A stretch of 40,000 bases of DNA from Calditerrivibrio sp. (GTDB taxonomy: Bacteria > Chrysiogenota > Deferribacteres > Deferribacterales > Calditerrivibrionaceae): assembly GCA_026415135.1 (NCBI GenBank), contig JAOAHS010000008.1, positions 1 to 40,000 of the forward strand, written 5' to 3'. This document shows positions 3,451 to 13,371 of this stretch, in pieces. The notes below the pieces were generated by a model. That model saw nothing but the letters and a program-made list of their open reading frames with translations. It ran no database searches and was not told where the DNA came from. Each line of letters opens with the position of its first letter. Within the stretch, counting starts at the first letter, position 1. A program made the position numbers and the translations under genes.

Positions 3451-4020
3451 TTATTTTGCAGCCATATAGGCATCTATCGTTTCTTTATCAGGCCCTTTTA
3501 TTGTAATCCCATGGGGGCCACCTGCAGGGATGGTTACATGCTTTGCAAGCTCACCATCTTTCTCAAATTTGGCATACTCCTTATCTCCCTCTTTGAAAAC
3601 CCAAAGCCTTCCATCCACAATCTTTGTAATAAATCCAGCCTTACTAAAGTTGTATCTACTCCAATCGACTTCAGCCTCCTCAAGGTTGCCATAAGCTTTT
3701 AGATACTCATCCACTGTTTCCTTATCTGGTGCCTTTATGGTAACCTTTAAAGGTCCAGCAAGGGGAAGTGTAACATGCTTTGCAAGCTCACCATCTTTCT
3801 CAAATTTGGCATACTCCTTATCTCCCTCCTTGAAAACCCATAATCTGTTGTCAACTATTTTTGTTTTAAAACCTGGTCGATCAAACTTATATTTACTGTA
3901 ATCAAGCTCAACTATCTCCACATCATCATCAACATCCTCAGACGTAGTAACTCCATTTTTTGTGGCACACGCCGTCATAAACACAAAGCTGATCAGTGTT
4001 AAACTTAAGAGCTTTTTCAT
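3451..4020 (-). CDS. Lipoprotein with two tandem ~70-residue repeats, at the end of the pst operon
   Basis: I do not recognise a named family. The 189 aa product starts MKKLLSLTLISF and has a lipobox MTAC with the lipidated cysteine at C18, so it should be membrane-anchored outside the cytoplasm. A short acidic linker follows, then two repeats spaced exactly 79 codons apart. Each repeat contains RLWVFKEGDKEYAKF and a tail of the form TIK-(A/G)-PDKET; the central 26 residues are identical in both. A very strong ribosome site (AGGAGG) precedes the ATG. The gene begins 24 bp after pstB with no terminator between them and ends in a terminator, so it is probably expressed with the pst genes. A role in phosphate uptake or sensing is inference from position only. 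Confidence 0.85.
   Translation of the reverse strand: MKKLLSLTLISFVFMTACATKNGVTTSEDVDDDVEIVELDYSKYKFDRPGFKTKIVDNRLWVFKEGDKEYAKFEKDGELAKHVTLPLAGPLKVTIKAPDKETVDEYLKAYGNLEEAEVDWSRYNFSKAGFITKIVDGRLWVFKEGDKEYAKFEKDGELAKHVTIPAGGPHGITIKGPDKETIDAYMAAK
3533..3603. repeat. Direct repeat copy A (second protein repeat of the lipoprotein)
   Basis: These 71 bp match 3770-3840 with only two differences, and include an uninterrupted 56-bp identity (3536-3591 against 3773-3828). The spacing is 237 bp, exactly 79 codons. The surrounding parts of the two protein repeats are clearly more diverged. Confidence 0.95.
3770..3840. repeat. Direct repeat copy B (first protein repeat of the lipoprotein)
   Basis: This is the partner of the copy at 3533-3603. 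Near-identity at third codon positions as well as at the protein level suggests recent duplication or gene conversion rather than protein constraint alone. Confidence 0.95.
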
Positions 4021-4043: not shown

Positions 4044-4859
4044 TTAGCCAAATCTACCTGTTATATAGTCTTCGGTCTCTTTTAACTTGGGCTTTTTAAA
4101 TATATTAACAGTATTACCATACTCCACCAGATACCCCATGTACATAAATGCTGTAAAATCGCTAACCCTAGCTGCCTGTTGCATGTTGTGGGTTACAATC
4201 ACCACAGTGTATTTCCCCCTCAGAGAAAGGATAAGCTCTTCAATTCTAAGTGTAGCAAGAGGATCCAAAGCAGAACAGGGCTCATCCATCAAGATAACCT
4301 CAGGCTCTGGGGCAATTGCCCTTGCTATGCATAACCTCTGCTGTTGACCACCAGAAAGACCAAAGGCGTTGTCCTTTAGCCTATCTTTCACCTCATCCCA
4401 GAGACCTGCCTGAACCAGTGAACGCTCGCAGACCTCATCCAGAATAGACTTCTTTTTCACCCCCGAAATCTTCAATGGATAAACCACATTATCATATATA
4501 CTCATGGGGAAGGGGTTGGGCTTTTGGGCAACCATACCAAGACTTTTTCTTAGCTCTGAAAGATCCACAGATCTATCATAGATATTCTCACCATTAATCT
4601 CAATAGTCCCATCAATTTTGACTATATCCAATAGATCGTTCAACCTATTTATGCAGCGCAAAAGTGTAGACTTACCACAACCGGAAGGTCCAATGAGGGC
4701 TGTAACTTTACCTTTCGGGATATCCATGTTTATATTAAATAAAGCCTGCTTTTCACCATAAAACAGGTTTAACTGTTTTATCTTTATAATTATCTCCTCT
4801 TTTTCAATGAGGGGGTCATAAACGGTCTGTCTAACTTTTTCCGTAGAAACATCAATCAT
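4044..4859 (-). CDS. pstB: PstB, phosphate ABC transporter ATPase
   Basis: PstB is the cytoplasmic ATPase of the high-affinity phosphate importer PstSCAB. The protein of 271 aa has Walker [10 protein letters not shown] (57-65), a Q-loop in [16 protein letters not shown] (a PstB hallmark), signature LSGGQQQR, Walker [14 protein letters not shown] and a switch histidine in [14 protein letters not shown]. The ATG has a GGGAG ribosome site and lies 13 bp after pstA. About 25 residues precede the usual PstB core. It is the last transporter gene of the operon; the lipoprotein gene follows immediately. Confidence 0.98.
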
Positions 4860-4872
4860 ATTAACTTCTCCC

Positions 4873-6609
4873 TTAGAATATACTGCCTATAAATTTTTTC
4901 CTTAATCTGTTCCTAATATAGATTGCAACTACATTTAAAAGTACAACAATTGTTATCAAAAGTAACGTAGTAGTATATACCATAGGTATTGCAGCATCAC
5001 TGTTTTGGCTTTGAAACCCTAAATCGTATATATGAAAACCAAGATGCATAAAGCTCCTCTCCAAATGTACAAATGGGAAGATACTATCCACCGGCATCTC
5101 TGGCGCAAGCTTAACCGCTCCCACCAGCATAAGAGGTGCAACTTCACCAGCCCCCCTTGACATCGCCAAAATAAAACCCGTCATAATACCCGGCATTGCC
5201 CTCGGTAATACAATATATCTTATCGTTTGCCACTTTGTAGCACCGCAAGCGTAGGAACCCTCCCTCAGGGAGTTTGGTACAGCATTTATGGCCTCTTCTG
5301 TTGCAACAATAACCACAGGAAGCGTCAAAAGCGCCAGCGTCAAAGAAGCCCATAGTATTCCACCCGTTCCAAAGGTGGGGTTTGGAAGCTTTTCCGGATA
5401 AAAGATCTTGTCTATACCAGCACCAAATGTATAGGCAAAAAACCCTAAACCAAAAACGCCATATACGATCGATGGCACCCCTGCTAAGTTGTTTATGGCA
5501 ATCCTAAGGGTACTGATTATTTTACCACTTTTGGCATACTCCTTCATATAGATAGCAGCCATAACACCAAAAGGTACCACAAATATACTCATTATTATCG
5601 TCATCACTACTGTACCAAATATCGCAGGGAAAACACCACCTTCGCTATTGGCCTCCCTCGGTTCACCAGTGAGGAACTCATGCCATCTACTAAAATAGAT
5701 GCCCAATTTTTCCATAAAGCTCAGTTGGTTAGCATAATATGCTCTCACCATCTCATAAAGCTTGACTTCTTTCCCTTTACCATCTGCTGTCTCAAAATGT
5801 ATGGAATACCTTTCGTACTCTTTTTTAAGTTTCTCGATCTGCAGTAGGTAATCGTCAAACTTGGCCTTACTTAACGTTTCAAATCTCTTGTACTCCTCCA
5901 TGATCTTTTGCAGCTCTTTTTTGGCTAACTCTATCTTTTCAGCATTATTACTCGCTTTTGCTTCGGTGAGCTTGAGCATAGCCTTTTTAACCTTTAACCT
6001 TTCTTTTTCTATCTTATGGTTTAATTTTCCTATCTCACCCTTCTCTATGGATACCTTCTTATACCAAAGATTAACCGCCATATCATGATATTTCTTATAG
6101 TTTTTAAAGATCTCCTCTTCGCCAGTAGCAACAATAACCCCATCTATCTTAAACTCCTTAGGTATCCCATAAAATCTACCCCACTCCAGTCGCTCAATTA
6201 TCATCGCATGTTTGGGATAAAGTACATTTTTTATTTCATGCTGACTTACCCATTTAAAATGCTCGTTTGTGAGTTCGTAGTTACCAATCCTGACAAGAAA
6301 TCGCTTCTCCTTTAAATCATTTTCTTGAATCCTTTTTCTGTCCGATGCGTCAAGAGTATCTACTTTTGCCTTATCTATCCTATAAACCTCGACTTTAGTA
6401 ACCTCACCCATAACCTTCTCACCATTTTTCAGTTCGTATAATGTTATAGGTATAGGCCAATAGTTACCCAAACCGTTTTTTAATACCAGCAGCAACAGAA
6501 ACCCTATCATAGCAAGTGAAACAACAAGTCCACCTCCAGTTAACCACAGTATCGGTTCCCCTTTTGACTTGAAAAATATTTTATAATTCTTCCTAATGAA
6601 TAACCCCAT
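4873..6609 (-). CDS. pstA: PstA, phosphate ABC transporter permease with large extracytoplasmic insertion
   Basis: PstA is one of the two membrane permeases of the phosphate importer. The product has 578 aa, against roughly 280-300 in E. coli. After one membrane segment (about 22-44) comes a charged region of some 280 residues, including a likely coiled coil at about 185-270 rich in Lys, Glu and Leu. The conserved permease core begins near residue 325 ([14 protein letters not shown]), with the ABC-coupling EAA loop at about 438-472 ([23 protein letters not shown]). Long PstA proteins of this kind occur in some proteobacteria such as Pseudomonas. It starts 9 bp after pstC with an AAGGAG ribosome site. 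PstC is also extended, so the two insertions probably pair outside the membrane (inference). Confidence 0.96.
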
Positions 6610-6618
6610 CTCTGCTCC

Positions 6619-9153
6619 TTACAGTTGGCTCGATCTCTTTCGGTATCTTATTCTGACCATTTCTGCTATTGTATTTATTACAAATGTCATCAAAAACAGC
6701 ACCAGTGCTGCCAAGTAAAGTATCCTGTAATGGGTACTTCCTATAACCGCCTCAGGAAGTTCAACGGCGATATTTGCAGAAAGTGTTCTAAAACCAGCAA
6801 AGATGTTCATATCGAGGATAGGTGTATTACCTGCTGCCATTAGAACAATCATAGTCTCACCGATAGCTCTACCAAATCCGATCATTATCGCAGAAAATAT
6901 CCCACTCATCGCCACAGGTAAAACTATATTGATAACAGTCTGCCACTGGGTAGCACCAGCTGCCAAAGATGCTGACCTTAAGTGCTCCGGAACAGCATTC
7001 AGAGCATCCTCAGAAACAGTATATATTATAGGGATAACGGCAAACCCCATAATAAAACCTACAATTAATGCATTTCTCTGAACATAAGTGGACATTATAC
7101 TCTCTATGAAAGGTAATCCGAATCTAAGATCAATACCCAATGCAGTAACTGTATAAGCTAATAACAAGGTAACTAACACTGAAAATATCGTAATCACTAA
7201 AAACTTTGCAATCTCAATAACTGCGCAGGTGGTATAACCCTTATTTTCTAAAAGATTTTCATAAATATCATATAGAAATGTTCTGTATAGATAAATAGTA
7301 ATAAATACACCCAAAGGCAACAAGATAATTGCCCAGCCACCAAATGGTGATTGGGTACTGGAATGCAGCCACAGTTTAAAATCGCCATAAAACAATATCT
7401 TTTCCACATAAACAGCGCTTTTCATCCCCACATACCCCCCAACAGGAAGCGCTAAAACAGCAATCAAAGGGATTCTATATCTATCCATATTATTAAGTAT
7501 GTTTTTTGGCATAAGCTGCACAAGATTACCAAAAAATAACAGGAAAAAGGGGATAAATATGATAGCCATAAGCAAACCAAGCACGATATTCTCCACAAAG
7601 GGGGAGACAATAAGTGCAGCAATAAAACCGAGCACCACAGAAGGTAAAGAAGCCATCACCTCAATAGTTGATTTTATAGCATTTCTATAGCTTTTATGGG
7701 CAAATTCACTGGTATAGATAGCTGCAAGAATTGCTATTGGTACTGCAAAGAGCATCGCAATGATCGTAGCCTTTATAGTCCCAAAGATAAGGGGCATCAA
7801 TCCAAATTTTGGCTCAAAGTCATCGCTACCGCTGGAAGACTGCCAAACATGTTCCGGTTTACTGCTTAGCTCATATTGTACCTTACCAAAAATAGATCTA
7901 AAAGAGGCCTCGGGATGGGGTATATCCATGTCAAAATTTACTATCTTAGCCTCACCCAATACTATGATCCTGTTGTTTTTCTGATTGATGACAGCCACTT
8001 TCCCCTTCAAGTCGTTAAGTTTTTCTAAAAATAGCTTTTTTTGCGACGTCATGTGGTACATGGAAACAAAATCTGCCTCGTTTAAAATCAAAAACGACTT
8101 ATCCCTCTGGGATGGGAATATAAAACGTATCGGCGATGAACTACCGCTATAGAAAGTATGAATATGGGAAAGGATATAGTTCTGTTTATTCAGATTGCTC
8201 TCCACAGGCCACCACGTGGTTACCTCACCCTTGTTGTCCCCGATCAAAACAGTGTTTCTACCGATAAGCATGTCCAAATAGGTTATCTTCCTTCCATCGC
8301 TAAAGAGGACTTTATCCTCAACGATGTAGGGATTTTTAAAGTTTTTTACATCTATATTTATATACCTTGAATTTTCAAAAAAGAGCATAATATTAGTCTT
8401 ACTCGAATTGATCTTTAAAAACTTAGGGAAGTCTTTGTTTATCTGTCTTGATAAATCGATTACAGACTCATCAAAACTCTCAGTAATCTCCCCCGTCATC
8501 ATGTTCTCTTTTTTCGTGAGCAGATCCACATGTAAGTTTTTTTTATCATCCAGAAAAGCTATAAATCTCTCATTGTCAGTACTAATACCATCCAAAAGTA
8601 CTATCTTCCTTTTAGCATCATCCTTAAATATCTGAGTCTGTTTAAAGGATATGAAGTACTCACTCTCCATTTCACCATATTTCTCAATCAACCTACTATC
8701 TTTGATCTGATAGATGGGCTTCCCAAAGATATCTCCAGATTTGAACGTATTTTTCGCATATTCGATCTTTACCTCGTAAAGTCCACCGCCCTCATCAGAT
8801 ATGAGGTAGCTACGGTCCTTTGGGCTGTAGCTAAATGCCACATACTTACCACCAAAACCAGTAGTATTAAGCAAGGAACCATCTTGCACAAAATATGTTT
8901 TAAAATTTTTCCCATCAAAAACTGTTGTAAAAAGACCATATTCATCTGAAACTGCATGAACAATATCAAACTTGTCCTTTACAGTAGTAAACTTTTGCTC
9001 TAATACTTTGCCTCCCTCAAACAGTGGGAATACGGTCCACAAAAGGAATATAAACACAAGCAAAACAGATGCTATTGTGCCTACACCACCTATTGTGATG
9101 ATATACCTGGCAAGCCTATCAATGAATTTTCTCTTTAGATTCGTATTTTTCAT
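6619..9153 (-). CDS. pstC: PstC, phosphate ABC transporter permease with large extracytoplasmic domain
   Basis: PstC is the second permease of the phosphate importer. At 844 aa it is far longer than the roughly 320 aa of E. coli PstC. A membrane segment at about 17-40 is followed by about 400 extracytoplasmic residues with beta-rich, repeat-like stretches (for example TVLIGDNKGEVTTWWPVE), suggestive of a propeller-like fold. The permease core runs from about 449 to 835 and itself contains an extra membrane and loop insertion near 550-670. The coupling EAA loop is at 715-750 (SEDALNAVPEHLRSASLAAGATQW). The gene lies downstream of pstS, separated by a hairpin. Extended PstC proteins are known in some proteobacteria, so this is a recognised but little-studied form. 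Confidence 0.96.
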   Translation of the reverse strand: MKNTNLKRKFIDRLARYIITIGGVGTIASVLLVFIFLLWTVFPLFEGGKVLEQKFTTVKDKFDIVHAVSDEYGLFTTVFDGKNFKTYFVQDGSLLNTTGFGGKYVAFSYSPKDRSYLISDEGGGLYEVKIEYAKNTFKSGDIFGKPIYQIKDSRLIEKYGEMESEYFISFKQTQIFKDDAKRKIVLLDGISTDNERFIAFLDDKKNLHVDLLTKKENMMTGEITESFDESVIDLSRQINKDFPKFLKINSSKTNIMLFFENSRYINIDVKNFKNPYIVEDKVLFSDGRKITYLDMLIGRNTVLIGDNKGEVTTWWPVESNLNKQNYILSHIHTFYSGSSSPIRFIFPSQRDKSFLILNEADFVSMYHMTSQKKLFLEKLNDLKGKVAVINQKNNRIIVLGEAKIVNFDMDIPHPEASFRSIFGKVQYELSSKPEHVWQSSSGSDDFEPKFGLMPLIFGTIKATIIAMLFAVPIAILAAIYTSEFAHKSYRNAIKSTIEVMASLPSVVLGFIAALIVSPFVENIVLGLLMAIIFIPFFLLFFGNLVQLMPKNILNNMDRYRIPLIAVLALPVGGYVGMKSAVYVEKILFYGDFKLWLHSSTQSPFGGWAIILLPLGVFITIYLYRTFLYDIYENLLENKGYTTCAVIEIAKFLVITIFSVLVTLLLAYTVTALGIDLRFGLPFIESIMSTYVQRNALIVGFIMGFAVIPIIYTVSEDALNAVPEHLRSASLAAGATQWQTVINIVLPVAMSGIFSAIMIGFGRAIGETMIVLMAAGNTPILDMNIFAGFRTLSANIAVELPEAVIGSTHYRILYLAALVLFLMTFVINTIAEMVRIRYRKRSSQL

Positions 9154-9201: not shown

Positions 9202-10167
9202 TTATTTAAGTCCTACTTTTGCAAGCTCCTGCTCGGCAACTTTTGCAGTTATAGGGAAATAACCATCCTTAACAACCACTTCCTGCCCCTGCTTACTAAA
9301 GATCAGCTTAATAAATTCAGCCCTCAGAGGATCCATCTGGGTCCCAGGCTTATGATTTACATAAACATACAGGAACCTTGCAAGAGGGTATTCCCCTGTA
9401 TAGGCATGGGCAGCATCAGGCTCGATACACTTACCACCTTTTTTCTCGGAAAGAGCCACAGCTTTAACCCCAGCAGTCTTATAACCAATACCACTATAAC
9501 CTATTGCATACTTATCGCTTGTCACACCCTGTACCACTGATGAACTACCAGGCTGCTCCTTGACATTATCCTTAAAATCTCCGTTTTTAAACACATGCTC
9601 CTTCACATACCCATAAGTACCAGATGCTGAGTTCCTGCCATAGAGACTAATTGGCTTATTTGCCCACTCTCCGGTAAGCCCCAAGTCACCCCATGTAACA
9701 ATGTCCTTAGGATAACCCCTCTTTCTTGTCTTTGAAAAAATAGCATCCACTTCTTCAAGGGACAAACATTGAATTGGGTTATCTTTGTTCACATAGATGG
9801 CAAGCATATCTATACTCGTTCTAAGAGCTACGGGCTTATATCCATACTTCTTTTCAAAATCATCTATCTCCTTGCCCCTCATCTCCCTTGACATGGGACC
9901 AAAATGAGCAGTACCGGAGACTAACGCTGCAGGTGCCGTTGAAGAACCTTTACCCTCAATCTCGATCTTCACATTAGGATAATAGCTCATGAACTTCTCT
10001 GCCCAGAGCGTCATAAGATTGTTCATGGTATCTGATCCCACACTCTTAATATTCCCAGTAACACCTTTGGCTTTCTTGTAGGATGGAAGAGCCTTGTCTA
10101 CAAGATCAGAAGAGTAAGATACTGTCGCAAATGATAACAAACAGAACAATGCAACTAATTTTTTCAT
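9202..10167 (-). CDS. pstS: PstS, periplasmic phosphate-binding protein
   Basis: PstS captures phosphate in the periplasm and delivers it to PstCA. The 321 aa product has a signal peptide (MKKLVALFCLLSFATVSYSS). It then shows GSDTMNNL, GKGSSTAPAAL, FGPMSREM and the segment GRNSASGTYGYVKEHV, which resemble PstS proteins of the larger, SphX-like type. The start is fixed by a GGAGG ribosome site seven bases upstream. A Pho-box-like double repeat and a -10 element lie in the 101-bp gap between phoR and pstS, so the gene probably has its own phosphate-starvation promoter in addition to any read-through from phoUBR. Confidence 0.96.
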   Translation of the reverse strand: MKKLVALFCLLSFATVSYSSDLVDKALPSYKKAKGVTGNIKSVGSDTMNNLMTLWAEKFMSYYPNVKIEIEGKGSSTAPAALVSGTAHFGPMSREMRGKEIDDFEKKYGYKPVALRTSIDMLAIYVNKDNPIQCLSLEEVDAIFSKTRKRGYPKDIVTWGDLGLTGEWANKPISLYGRNSASGTYGYVKEHVFKNGDFKDNVKEQPGSSSVVQGVTSDKYAIGYSGIGYKTAGVKAVALSEKKGGKCIEPDAAHAYTGEYPLARFLYVYVNHKPGTQMDPLRAEFIKLIFSKQGQEVVVKDGYFPITAKVAEQELAKVGLK

Positions 10168-10215: not shown

Positions 10216-10253
10216 GTTATAAAACCTTCTTAAAAATTTCAAATTTTTGTAAA
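10216..10253 (-). promoter_or_regulatory. Pho-box-like direct repeats and -10 element of pstS
   Basis: Read on the minus strand, TTTACAA (10253-10247), spacer AAAT and TTGAAAT (10242-10236) form two 7-bp units with an 11-bp period, the geometry of PhoB boxes. After exactly 14 bases comes TATAAC (10221-10216) as a candidate -10. The core is 17/18 identical to the one upstream of phoU, and the distance to the -10 is the same. PhoB, encoded nearby, is the natural candidate regulator. Confidence 0.7.
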
Positions 10254-10268
10254 TTTTTTTTCATGCAG

Positions 10269-11936
10269 CTACTTCTCTTTAAGGACAACCTTAAAACAAT
10301 TACCACCATACACACTCTTGATAAGCTCCACATAACCGCCATAGAGCTCTGCAGTATGTTTAACAATAGATAGACCCAAACCTGTACCTGAATGTTTTCT
10401 ATTGCGGGATCTTGAGGATGTATAAAACCGCTCAAATATCTTCCCCTTTTCCTCATCAGGTATTACAGGCCCCTCATCCTCTACAGAGAGAACAATCTTG
10501 GATTCTGATTTAACAAGACTCACATAGACATTATTACCTGTAGAATAAGTCAAGGCATTGTCTATTAAATTTTTAAAAATAGACAAAAGGTGCTCCTTCA
10601 AAACCTTAACCTCGCTGTCATCAAAGTTATAATGTATCTTTTTTACAGCATCCCTATAGATCTCTTCCAGTTCAGACATAAGTTCTGACGGATAAACCCC
10701 CCTTTCTACAGAGAAATTTCTATCCGAACTCTCAAGGGAGTGTAGCTGTATGATATCTGCTATCAAATTATCGAGTCTCACTGACGAATCGTAGAGCTTT
10801 TTTAAAAATTTTTCCCTGGTATTTTGATCCATTTCGTTATTCAAAAGGGTTTCAGCATAGCCCATGATAATGGATACCGGCGTCTTAAGTTCGTGGCTTA
10901 CATTGGCCACAAGCTCACTTTTAAAGGCATGATACCTCATCTGGTCCGAAGAATCATGAAAGACTATAATCTTATAATTACCTGAAGATTTTATACTTAT
11001 TTCATATATCCTGTTCTTATATTTGCAAAAGTGTTTACCATCATCTTTATTTTTTAATTCATTAAAAAGCTTGATACATTCGTAATCCTTAGCATCTTTC
11101 AACGAATCACAGAACAGCTCTTTGTATTTTTCATTACCATATACAAGTTCCCAATTTTCATCAAAAAGCGCCACAGAGTCTGAAAGAGAAGATAGTATAA
11201 AATGTATTCTATTTTTCTCCTCCGCTATAGCCCTTTCCCTTAACAACATATTATTATAAAACCTTGTAACCAGTGTAGATATCTCATCACTAAAAACCGT
11301 ATATTTTTGAATATCTATCTTTTCACCCTTTTCAGCCTTTGTTATTAGTTCATTTAGGTTTTCTATAGGTAGAAGTAACTTTTTTGTAAAATAATAGGTC
11401 AACATAAAAATCATCCCAACAACGGCAACAAATATCATCATCAGCTGATACTTAAGATCTTTTGCATATGTCTCCAAGTTTATCAATGGTAGAGAAAGTC
11501 TTAAGATATATTCATCATTTATGAGCTTTGCGTAGTATATATATTTGACCCCAAGGGTACTGGATAATCTTACATCAAACCCCTCTCCAACTTTTAAAGC
11601 ATCCACAACCTCTTTTCTACCAGCATGGTTCTCCACCTTCAAAAGGTCTTTCTCACTGAAAAATGTTGAATCGTATCTAACAGCTCCATCCTTGTCCACT
11701 ATGGTTACTCTTACCTCCAAACTCGCCAATATATTTTTCAGATCGATATTTAGATAGTTATACTGCCCTTTTTCAGGGTATATTTTATAAAGCATCGTGC
11801 TGTACTGTCTTAAGGTATTTACTCTATCATTGAGTATATCCTTAGACAACGCAGAAGTGATTACATAAACACTAAACAAGATCACAGCAATCAAAGATGT
11901 GGATAAAAGCAGAAGGTACTTTAAAAATATTTTCAT
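10269..11936 (-). CDS. phoR: PhoR-type sensor histidine kinase
   Basis: This membrane kinase phosphorylates the response regulator encoded just upstream, PhoB, under phosphate limitation. The protein of 555 aa has membrane segments at about 7-29 and 163-183 flanking an extracytoplasmic region of about 130 residues, unlike E. coli PhoR, which has almost none. It then has a HAMP-like linker, a PAS domain (about 240-330), the dimerisation/phosphoacceptor helix NVSHELKTPVSIIMGYAETL with His348, the N box (NLIDNALTY, about 456-464), DEGP (487-490) and GTGLGLSIV (517-525). It starts 3 bp after the phoB stop. The architecture resembles Gram-positive and delta-proteobacterial PhoR. Assignment to phosphate rests on linkage with phoU, phoB and pst. 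Confidence 0.93.
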   Translation of the reverse strand: MKIFLKYLLLLSTSLIAVILFSVYVITSALSKDILNDRVNTLRQYSTMLYKIYPEKGQYNYLNIDLKNILASLEVRVTIVDKDGAVRYDSTFFSEKDLLKVENHAGRKEVVDALKVGEGFDVRLSSTLGVKYIYYAKLINDEYILRLSLPLINLETYAKDLKYQLMMIFVAVVGMIFMLTYYFTKKLLLPIENLNELITKAEKGEKIDIQKYTVFSDEISTLVTRFYNNMLLRERAIAEEKNRIHFILSSLSDSVALFDENWELVYGNEKYKELFCDSLKDAKDYECIKLFNELKNKDDGKHFCKYKNRIYEISIKSSGNYKIIVFHDSSDQMRYHAFKSELVANVSHELKTPVSIIMGYAETLLNNEMDQNTREKFLKKLYDSSVRLDNLIADIIQLHSLESSDRNFSVERGVYPSELMSELEEIYRDAVKKIHYNFDDSEVKVLKEHLLSIFKNLIDNALTYSTGNNVYVSLVKSESKIVLSVEDEGPVIPDEEKGKIFERFYTSSRSRNRKHSGTGLGLSIVKHTAELYGGYVELIKSVYGGNCFKVVLKEK

Positions 11937-11939
11937 GAT

Positions 11940-12614
11940 CTACTCAAGAACATAACCAATTTTTGGGATAGATTTTATAAGATCACCTTTACTTTCGAGT
12001 TTTTTTCTTAAGGAGGATATATGCGAATCGACTGTTCTGGTATAGATGTCGGCCTCATACCCCCAGATATTGCTCAAGAGCTGGGATCTTGTAAAAACCT
12101 TCTTAGGGTGTTTCATTAAAAACAGGAGCAGTTCAAACTCTTTGTAAGTAAGAGAAATCTCATTGTTATCAACAAAAACCTTGTATTTCTCAGTATCCAC
12201 ATAGATACCTTTGTAACTGATAATCGCATCATCCTTTTTATTTACTTTTCTAAGTAAAATCTTTATTTTAGCTAACAATACCTTCATACTAAAAGGCTTT
12301 GTAATATAATCATCAGCACCAAGCTCAAGGCCTTCTACAATATCAGACTCACTACTTCTTGCTGATATTATGATCACTGGTATAGATGAATACTTGGGAG
12401 ACCTTTTTAAGATCTGCAAAAACTGAGTCCCTTTAAGCCCCGGCATCATAATATCCAAAAGTACGATATCAGGCGTGATCTCATCCATAAATATTAATGC
12501 ATCATTGGCATTTTCTGCTTCGATAACATCATAACCAGCTTTGGTAAGGTTAAAGGCAATAAGCTCCCTTAAAGGGTCCTCATCTTCCACTAACAACACC
12601 TTATTCATGATCAT
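11940..12614 (-). CDS. phoB: PhoB, OmpR-family phosphate response regulator
   Basis: This DNA-binding response regulator is probably phosphorylated by the PhoR downstream. It has a receiver domain with acidic pocket EDED near residue 10, phosphoacceptor D54 (IVLLDIMMPG), S84 and K106 (ITKPF). A winged-helix domain fills about 125-224, with the family pattern FTRSQLLSNIWGYE and TVDSHISSLRKKL. The gene overlaps phoU. Two in-frame ATGs exist: the second (12608, MNKVLLVEDED) has a better-spaced GGA ribosome site and the more usual family N-terminus, so the true start may be two codons inside the given one. It likely binds the Pho-box-like repeats before phoU and pstS. Confidence 0.94.
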   Translation of the reverse strand: MIMNKVLLVEDEDPLRELIAFNLTKAGYDVIEAENANDALIFMDEITPDIVLLDIMMPGLKGTQFLQILKRSPKYSSIPVIIISARSSESDIVEGLELGADDYITKPFSMKVLLAKIKILLRKVNKKDDAIISYKGIYVDTEKYKVFVDNNEISLTYKEFELLLFLMKHPKKVFTRSQLLSNIWGYEADIYTRTVDSHISSLRKKLESKGDLIKSIPKIGYVLE

Positions 12615-13281
12615 TTCCGTTTAGCTCGTTATATTTCTTATGCCTGATATTCTCGCCTCTTGCCATGAAATAAACTGTTTCTGCTATATTAGTAGCATGA
12701 TCTGCAATCCTTTCAAGACTTCTCGAAATGAATATCAGCGACAAACAACCTTTCGTCTTTCTGAAATCCTCAACAATATATGTCAAAAGCTCCCTCAATA
12801 TCTGGTTATTGAGGTTATCCACGTAATCATCCCCTTTTATAACCTTGAGAGCATCCTTAGGATTTTTAGCAAAAAAGCTGTTTACAGCATTTTTTACCAT
12901 CTCTGCAGAGTAATCTGCCATTTTAGGCAGATCTATGTAGGGTTTGATAGGTGGAATCTGATTAAGCTTGATTATCTCTTTAGCTATATCCACACAATGA
13001 TCCCCAATCCTCTCCAGATCAGTTATAATTCTAAGGGCTGTTACCACAAACCTCAGGTCAGTTGCCTTTGGCTCGTACAAAGCAAGTCCATCAAGACACA
13101 TCTCCTCTATTTTTACATCCAGCTCATCTACTTTATCATCCATAGCTATTATATTTTCAGCTATCTCGTTATCCCGTTCCACAAGAGATTTAATACACAT
13201 TGTAATCATGTCGGTTACCATATCAGTCATCTCAGCCAGATTACCTTTTACTTCAGAAATAAGATTTTCTATCTGCTTCAT
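12601..13281 (-). CDS. phoU: PhoU, phosphate uptake/signalling regulator
   Basis: PhoU links the Pst transporter to the PhoR kinase and holds the Pho response off when phosphate is plentiful. The product has 226 aa, all-helical by appearance, with two PhoU repeats. Each carries the acidic metal-binding helix type: DRIGDHCVDIAKEI in the first and ERIADHATNIAETV in the second. It is the first gene of phoU-phoB-phoR and overlaps phoB by about 14 bases (8 if the second phoB ATG is used). Upstream lies a Pho-box-like triple repeat and a -10, so the regulatory genes appear autoregulated. In many proteobacteria phoU instead follows pstB. Confidence 0.97.
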   Translation of the reverse strand: MKQIENLISEVKGNLAEMTDMVTDMITMCIKSLVERDNEIAENIIAMDDKVDELDVKIEEMCLDGLALYEPKATDLRFVVTALRIITDLERIGDHCVDIAKEIIKLNQIPPIKPYIDLPKMADYSAEMVKNAVNSFFAKNPKDALKVIKGDDYVDNLNNQILRELLTYIVEDFRKTKGCLSLIFISRSLERIADHATNIAETVYFMARGENIRHKKYNELNGNDHE

Positions 13282-13314: not shown

Positions 13315-13352
13315 ATAATATTATTGTAACGCAAATTTCATATTTTTGTAAA
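13315..13352 (-). promoter_or_regulatory. Pho-box-like triple repeat and -10 element of phoU
   Basis: On the minus strand TTTACAA (13352-13346), ATGAAAT (13341-13335) and GTTACAA (13330-13324) are separated by four-base spacers, giving three units with an 11-bp period. TATTAT (13320-13315) is a candidate -10, 14 bases after the second unit, exactly as at pstS. The third unit is absent at pstS. Confidence 0.7.
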
Positions 13353-13371
13353 AAAAATGCAAAACAGCAAC

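Follow-up and report, generated by a model that had tools for sequence, protein, structure and literature searches.

The window, the whole stretch of 40,000 nucleotides analysed here, belongs to contig C8 of a 1.98 Mb Calditerrivibrio genome (Deferribacterota) and carries phoU, phoB, and phoR followed by pstS, pstC, pstA, and pstB, all on the minus strand. PhoU (12601..13281) matches PF01895 and exceeds the cut-off of TIGR02135 with 207.9 bits. Downstream of it lie phoB (11940..12614), encoding an OmpR/PhoB-family response regulator with the recognition helix RTVDSHISSLRKKL and the wing IPKIGY, and the sensor kinase gene phoR (10269..11936), which together form a cognate PhoB–PhoR gene pair. 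The top NCBIfam match of the phoB product is TIGR02154 (PhoB) at 245.8 bits, which is under the curated cut-off of 296.2 and is the highest score for this model among all regulators of the genome. PhoR contains HisKA and HATPase_c domains, and its top NCBIfam matches are PhoR/PnpS models, also under the cut-off. PstS (9202..10167; TIGR02136 family, 253.8 bits), PstC (6619-9153; TIGR02138), PstA (4873-6609; TIGR00974), and PstB (4044-4859; TIGR00972) all score over their cut-offs and are encoded in a putative pstSCAB operon, in which the transport genes downstream of pstS span 4044..9153. The last gene of the pst operon (3451-4020, minus strand) encodes a lipoprotein-like protein of 189 aa that contains two nearly identical repeats, and profile searches gave no convincing family for it; this protein is also found in the C. 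nitroreducens-type genome G006 (L220 4763-5338).

Upstream of both phoU and pstS, the first-pass annotation had described a shared 18-mer resembling a Pho box, and both copies were found exactly where it placed them on the minus strand, TTTACAAAAATATGAAAT at 13335-13352 before phoU and TTTACAAAAATTTGAAAT at 10236-10253 before pstS. They differ in a single base, and this agreement of 17 out of 18 is the highest that any ungapped 18-mer attains between the two upstream regions. In the whole genome, TTTACAAAAATWTGAAAT matches exactly at these two 18-mers only. When upstream pairs were shuffled with preservation of dinucleotides (n = 4000), the best agreement was most commonly 13 and at most 16. 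Exactly 14 bases past the 18-mer, as had been reported, a putative -10-like hexamer begins in both promoters, TATTAT (13315-13320) for phoU and TATAAC (10216-10221) for pstS. The third phoU unit GTTACAA likewise lies in 11-bp phase, and a fourth, TTTTGCA, had been overlooked.

In the register obtained by expectation maximization (EM), the Pho box array before phoU (13321..13364, minus strand) consists of four 11-bp units, TTTTGCA (13358-13364), TTTTACA (13347-13353), TATGAAA (13336-13342), and CGTTACA (13325-13331), which are separated by the spacers tttt, aaaa, and tttg and followed by ataa and the hexamer TATTAT. The Pho box before pstS (10222..10265, minus strand) reads CATGAAA, ATTTACA (10248-10254), TTTGAAA (10237-10243), and TAAGAAG, with the spacers aaaa, aaaa, and tttt, and is followed by gttt and TATAAC; here the middle two units match well and the outer two poorly. 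Between the last good unit and the -10-like hexamer there are 14–15 bp. For phoU, the hexamer has equal spacing in the Calditerrivibrio genome G008 (TATCAT) and looser spacing in G006 and G007. For pstS, the spacing is unchanged throughout the genus, where the hexamer is TATAAC, CATAAC, or TATGAC, and in G001–G003, where it is CATGAC or CTTGAC; as -10 elements, sequences such as CATGAC and TATAAC are poor. A comparison of the pstS promoters of G001–G003 and G006–G008 also revealed a block like GAANGTTYCATRAC between the box and the pstS -10 (10216-10235, minus strand), which is conserved out to phylum-level relatives.

Among 51 genomes of the GTDB phylum, PhoU was detected in 48, and the 11-bp period recurs far beyond the genus. 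Upstream of phoU, TTNACA pairs occur 67 times at lag 11 (21 genomes; shuffle mean 1.4, maximum 6) and 39 times at lag 22, and upstream of pstS 38 times at lag 11 (19 genomes; shuffle mean 0.7, maximum 4). Apart from lag 11 and its echo at lag 22, no lag stands out comparably. These pair counts are not independent, because genomes inside one genus are related, but the lag-11 signal recurs in several families whose flanking sequences are quite dissimilar. An EM fit of an 11-bp unit on 42 phylum upstream regions yielded TTT(T/G)ACA followed by N4, three or four times in tandem, with the third T, the fifth A, the sixth C, and the seventh A nearly invariant. The arrays thus contain at least two direct repeats of about seven conserved and four less conserved bases. 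Of the 7+4 Pho-box geometry proposed initially, the direct repeats and the 11-bp period hold, whereas the register and word need correction, since TTTNACA fits all relatives. In particular, the word pair TTTACAA plus WTGAAAT has to be abandoned: its second word is a degenerate TTTNACA unit that lacks the ACA core (TATGAAA, TTTGAAA).

Within the genus, no upstream stretch is better conserved across four Calditerrivibrio genomes than the box, the Shine-Dalgarno and start region aside. The phoU array is kept in all four, as is the core TTTACAAAAATTT of the pstS box despite differing upstream genes. The pst operon of G006 is inverted, so that it converges on phoU-phoB-phoR (locus L220), and the pstS gene of G008 sits on a separate contig behind unrelated upstream sequence. 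Both boxes nevertheless persist in either genome and stand out as conserved within upstream regions that have otherwise diverged. A genus model (R1) scores the eight phoU and pstS sites of the four genomes at 1e-8 to 1e-10 and the next match at 5e-3, but it was trained on those eight sites, so that their E-values are circular. A phylum model (R2), built from 24 training sites and run over the 51 genomes, has its top whole-genome match directly before the pst operon in six genomes that supplied no training site (G030, G033, G035, G037, G041, and G043). At these six loci the match precedes the first pst permease gene, and the genes were assigned by blastp to the Pst proteins of the window. In G038 the top match lies before a gene judged by inspection to resemble pstS, with a weaker match before the pst operon. 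The sensitivity of R2 is limited, because several other held-out genomes have their top match elsewhere; in many genomes of f6, f7, and f8, too, the top match is not at pst. With the lag-11 enrichment, the four-genome footprint, and the held-out genomes, the conservation that had been anticipated before phoU and pstS in relatives is borne out. The boxes stand before the pst and the pho regulatory genes and are conserved alongside them.

On the strength of the conserved 11-bp array, the held-out pst matches, and the persistence through rearrangement, we regard the reading of both sites as Pho boxes as well supported, with a probability of roughly 0.9, and from it we infer PhoB binding and autoregulation. 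At low phosphate, PhoB, itself a product of the phoU-phoB-phoR operon, would be phosphorylated and bind the 11-bp direct repeats head to tail, the arrangement in which regulators of the OmpR/PhoB family bind such repeats (PMC4832192). The bound regulator might then recruit RNA polymerase at promoters that have a -10 but no separate good -35. In this way PhoB would switch on phoU-phoB-phoR, and thereby its own synthesis, as well as pstSCAB. Binding, its dependence on phosphorylation, the transcription start, and induction are all predictions of this model.

The shared words might instead belong to two ordinary promoters in AT-rich DNA and serve as their sigma-70 -35 elements (TTTACA/TTGACA). 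A promoter scan did pair TTTACA at 13352 with TACAAT over 18 bp (10 of 12 matches), and TTGACA-like units are found in relatives, but such scan matches are no more numerous than in shuffles (18 vs. 15.0). Moreover, a -35 element would not form tandem arrays of three to four copies with a strict 11-bp period in the homologous promoters of this phylum, nor would it single out pst operons genome-wide, and we consider this explanation very improbable. Equally small is the chance that the repeats are bound by another OmpR-type regulator rather than by the neighboring PhoB. Two more OmpR/PhoB-type regulators with DNA-binding domains are encoded in the genome (C37:35731-36417 and C24:30876-31511), and binding to direct repeats is general in this family (PMC4832192); however, the arrays track phoU-phoB-phoR and the pst genes throughout the phylum, and it is the neighboring regulator that best matches the PhoB model. 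A chance likeness of two intergenic regions can practically be dismissed: the region is indeed very AT-rich, matches with up to three mismatches arise by chance (4 vs. 0.83 expected), and the loose two-word pattern KTTACAANNNNWTGAAAT occurs 7 times in the window vs. 4.25, which is not significant alone, but 17/18 sharing was never attained in the 4000 shuffles, the lag-11 counts far exceed those of shuffled sequence, and the motif is conserved in relatives and held-out genomes.

The PhoB box of E. coli, CTGTCAT(A/T)4CTGTCAT, also consists of 7+4 bp direct repeats, is bound head to tail, and precedes pst and phoB genes (PMC4415409; PMC4832192); the Calditerrivibrio Pho boxes resemble it in geometry, position, and predicted mode of binding. 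As had been noted from the window, their word is a different one, TTT(T/G)ACA according to the unit matrix. In further contrast to E. coli, the box has three to four units, phoU is the first gene of the regulatory operon, and the distance from box to -10 is longer (14–15 bp compared with 10 bp; PMC1906773). The cyanobacterial SphR box CTTAACCT, with three tandem 8-bp repeats and 3-bp linkers (PMC1906773), shares the 11-bp period, the three units, the TTNAC core, and the position before pst genes, but unlike the Deferribacterota unit it invariably has A as its fourth base and ends in CCT. TTAACA-type 11-bp arrays are also predicted before genes of the same PstS family in a planctomycete (L009), Dadabacteria (L063/L067), and Desulfobacterota (L037). 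There, in contrast to the Deferribacterota boxes, the variable position is A, and the corresponding PhoB proteins keep the wing arginine. Since TTNACA-type 11-bp boxes exist in other phyla, the Pho box can be called lineage-specific, as the first-pass annotation did, only in part: the core is common property, and it is the PhoB contact residues that look specific to the phylum. Upstream of the Brocadia-type pstS (L052, L058, L060, L064, L069–L071, and L073), no TTNACA array was seen; a differing conserved stretch, roughly AATRAGTCGACTTCYNTAATNAATTTGAKTAAGATA, is present at these loci.

In E. coli PhoB, whose sequence was verified against 1gxp, the helix contacts bases through T194, V197, and R201, and the wing does so through R219 (PMC3264566; PMC3973317). 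Among 30 PhoB sequences of the phylum, T194 is retained, and V197, R201, and R219 are replaced throughout: position 197 is S, T, or A, position 201 is S (T in one), and position 219 is Pro in 29 of the 30 and Gln in G050. Calditerrivibrio PhoB accordingly differs from the E. coli protein in having neither Arg201 nor Arg219. None of 53 PhoB-like outgroup proteins has Pro at the wing position. Thus PhoB, rather than the box, looks lineage-specific in this phylum.

It is possible, and on balance somewhat doubtful, that the reading surface of the phylum's PhoB was rewired with a parallel shift of the box word, and that across bacteria the identity of residue 201 goes together with the letter at one position of the box. 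At the tested position, G occurs in 92% of the units of 4 outgroup genomes with R201 vs. 0% in 10 without it, in a comparison of clear-box genomes scored blind to that position (label permutation, p about 0.001). The former tend to have [T/C]GTAACA units, the latter T or C in place of the G. E. coli CTGTCAT can be aligned to these words only to within one base; placing its G at the degenerate fourth unit position was dropped in favor of the second, because the R201 outgroups have TGTAACA. The covariation is put forward only tentatively, because there are exceptions among the cyanobacteria and in several weaker cases: SphR reads CTTAACCT although its contact residues are those of E. coli (PMC1906773), G is missing from the weaker boxes of L024/L027, L049, and L056 despite their R201, and it is present in the phoU unit CGTTACA alongside S201. 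With base-contacting residues far from those of E. coli, the PhoB of this phylum offers a natural case for studying how regulator and operator word change together. A search of a collection of open-access papers found no description of a Pho box in Deferribacterota. The sites would thus form an ordinary PhoB switch in a lineage where it is apparently undescribed, and the analysis supplies a usable Pho-box matrix for the phylum.

An R1 scan of the four Calditerrivibrio genomes found no convincing third Pho box, and the predicted Pho regulon is small, with two operons. Most of 22 further R1 matches inspected in the genus are within reading frames, and the extra candidates of the window's own genome, at C37:127326 and on C39, C48, and C25, were dropped because of their position within genes or at gene edges. 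A weak candidate reads TTTTACA N4 AATGAAA N4 TATTACA at L291/L292, upstream of approximately 1501 (G007:C46, G006:C2), and TTTTACA N4 AATAGAC N4 CTTTACA at L293, approximately 1385-1425 (G000:C35). Downstream of it lie a gene for a 777-aa protein without a known family and then one for a phosphatidylserine decarboxylase; the R1 E-value of the candidate is only 0.064.

The window PstS (9202-10167), which is accompanied by long forms of PstC and PstA, has close relatives in 7 of the 51 phylum genomes, all in Calditerrivibrio and family f10, and more distant ones in 22. Its other nearest relatives belong to planctomycetes and further phyla, a distribution that suggests acquisition of the pst operon by transfer.
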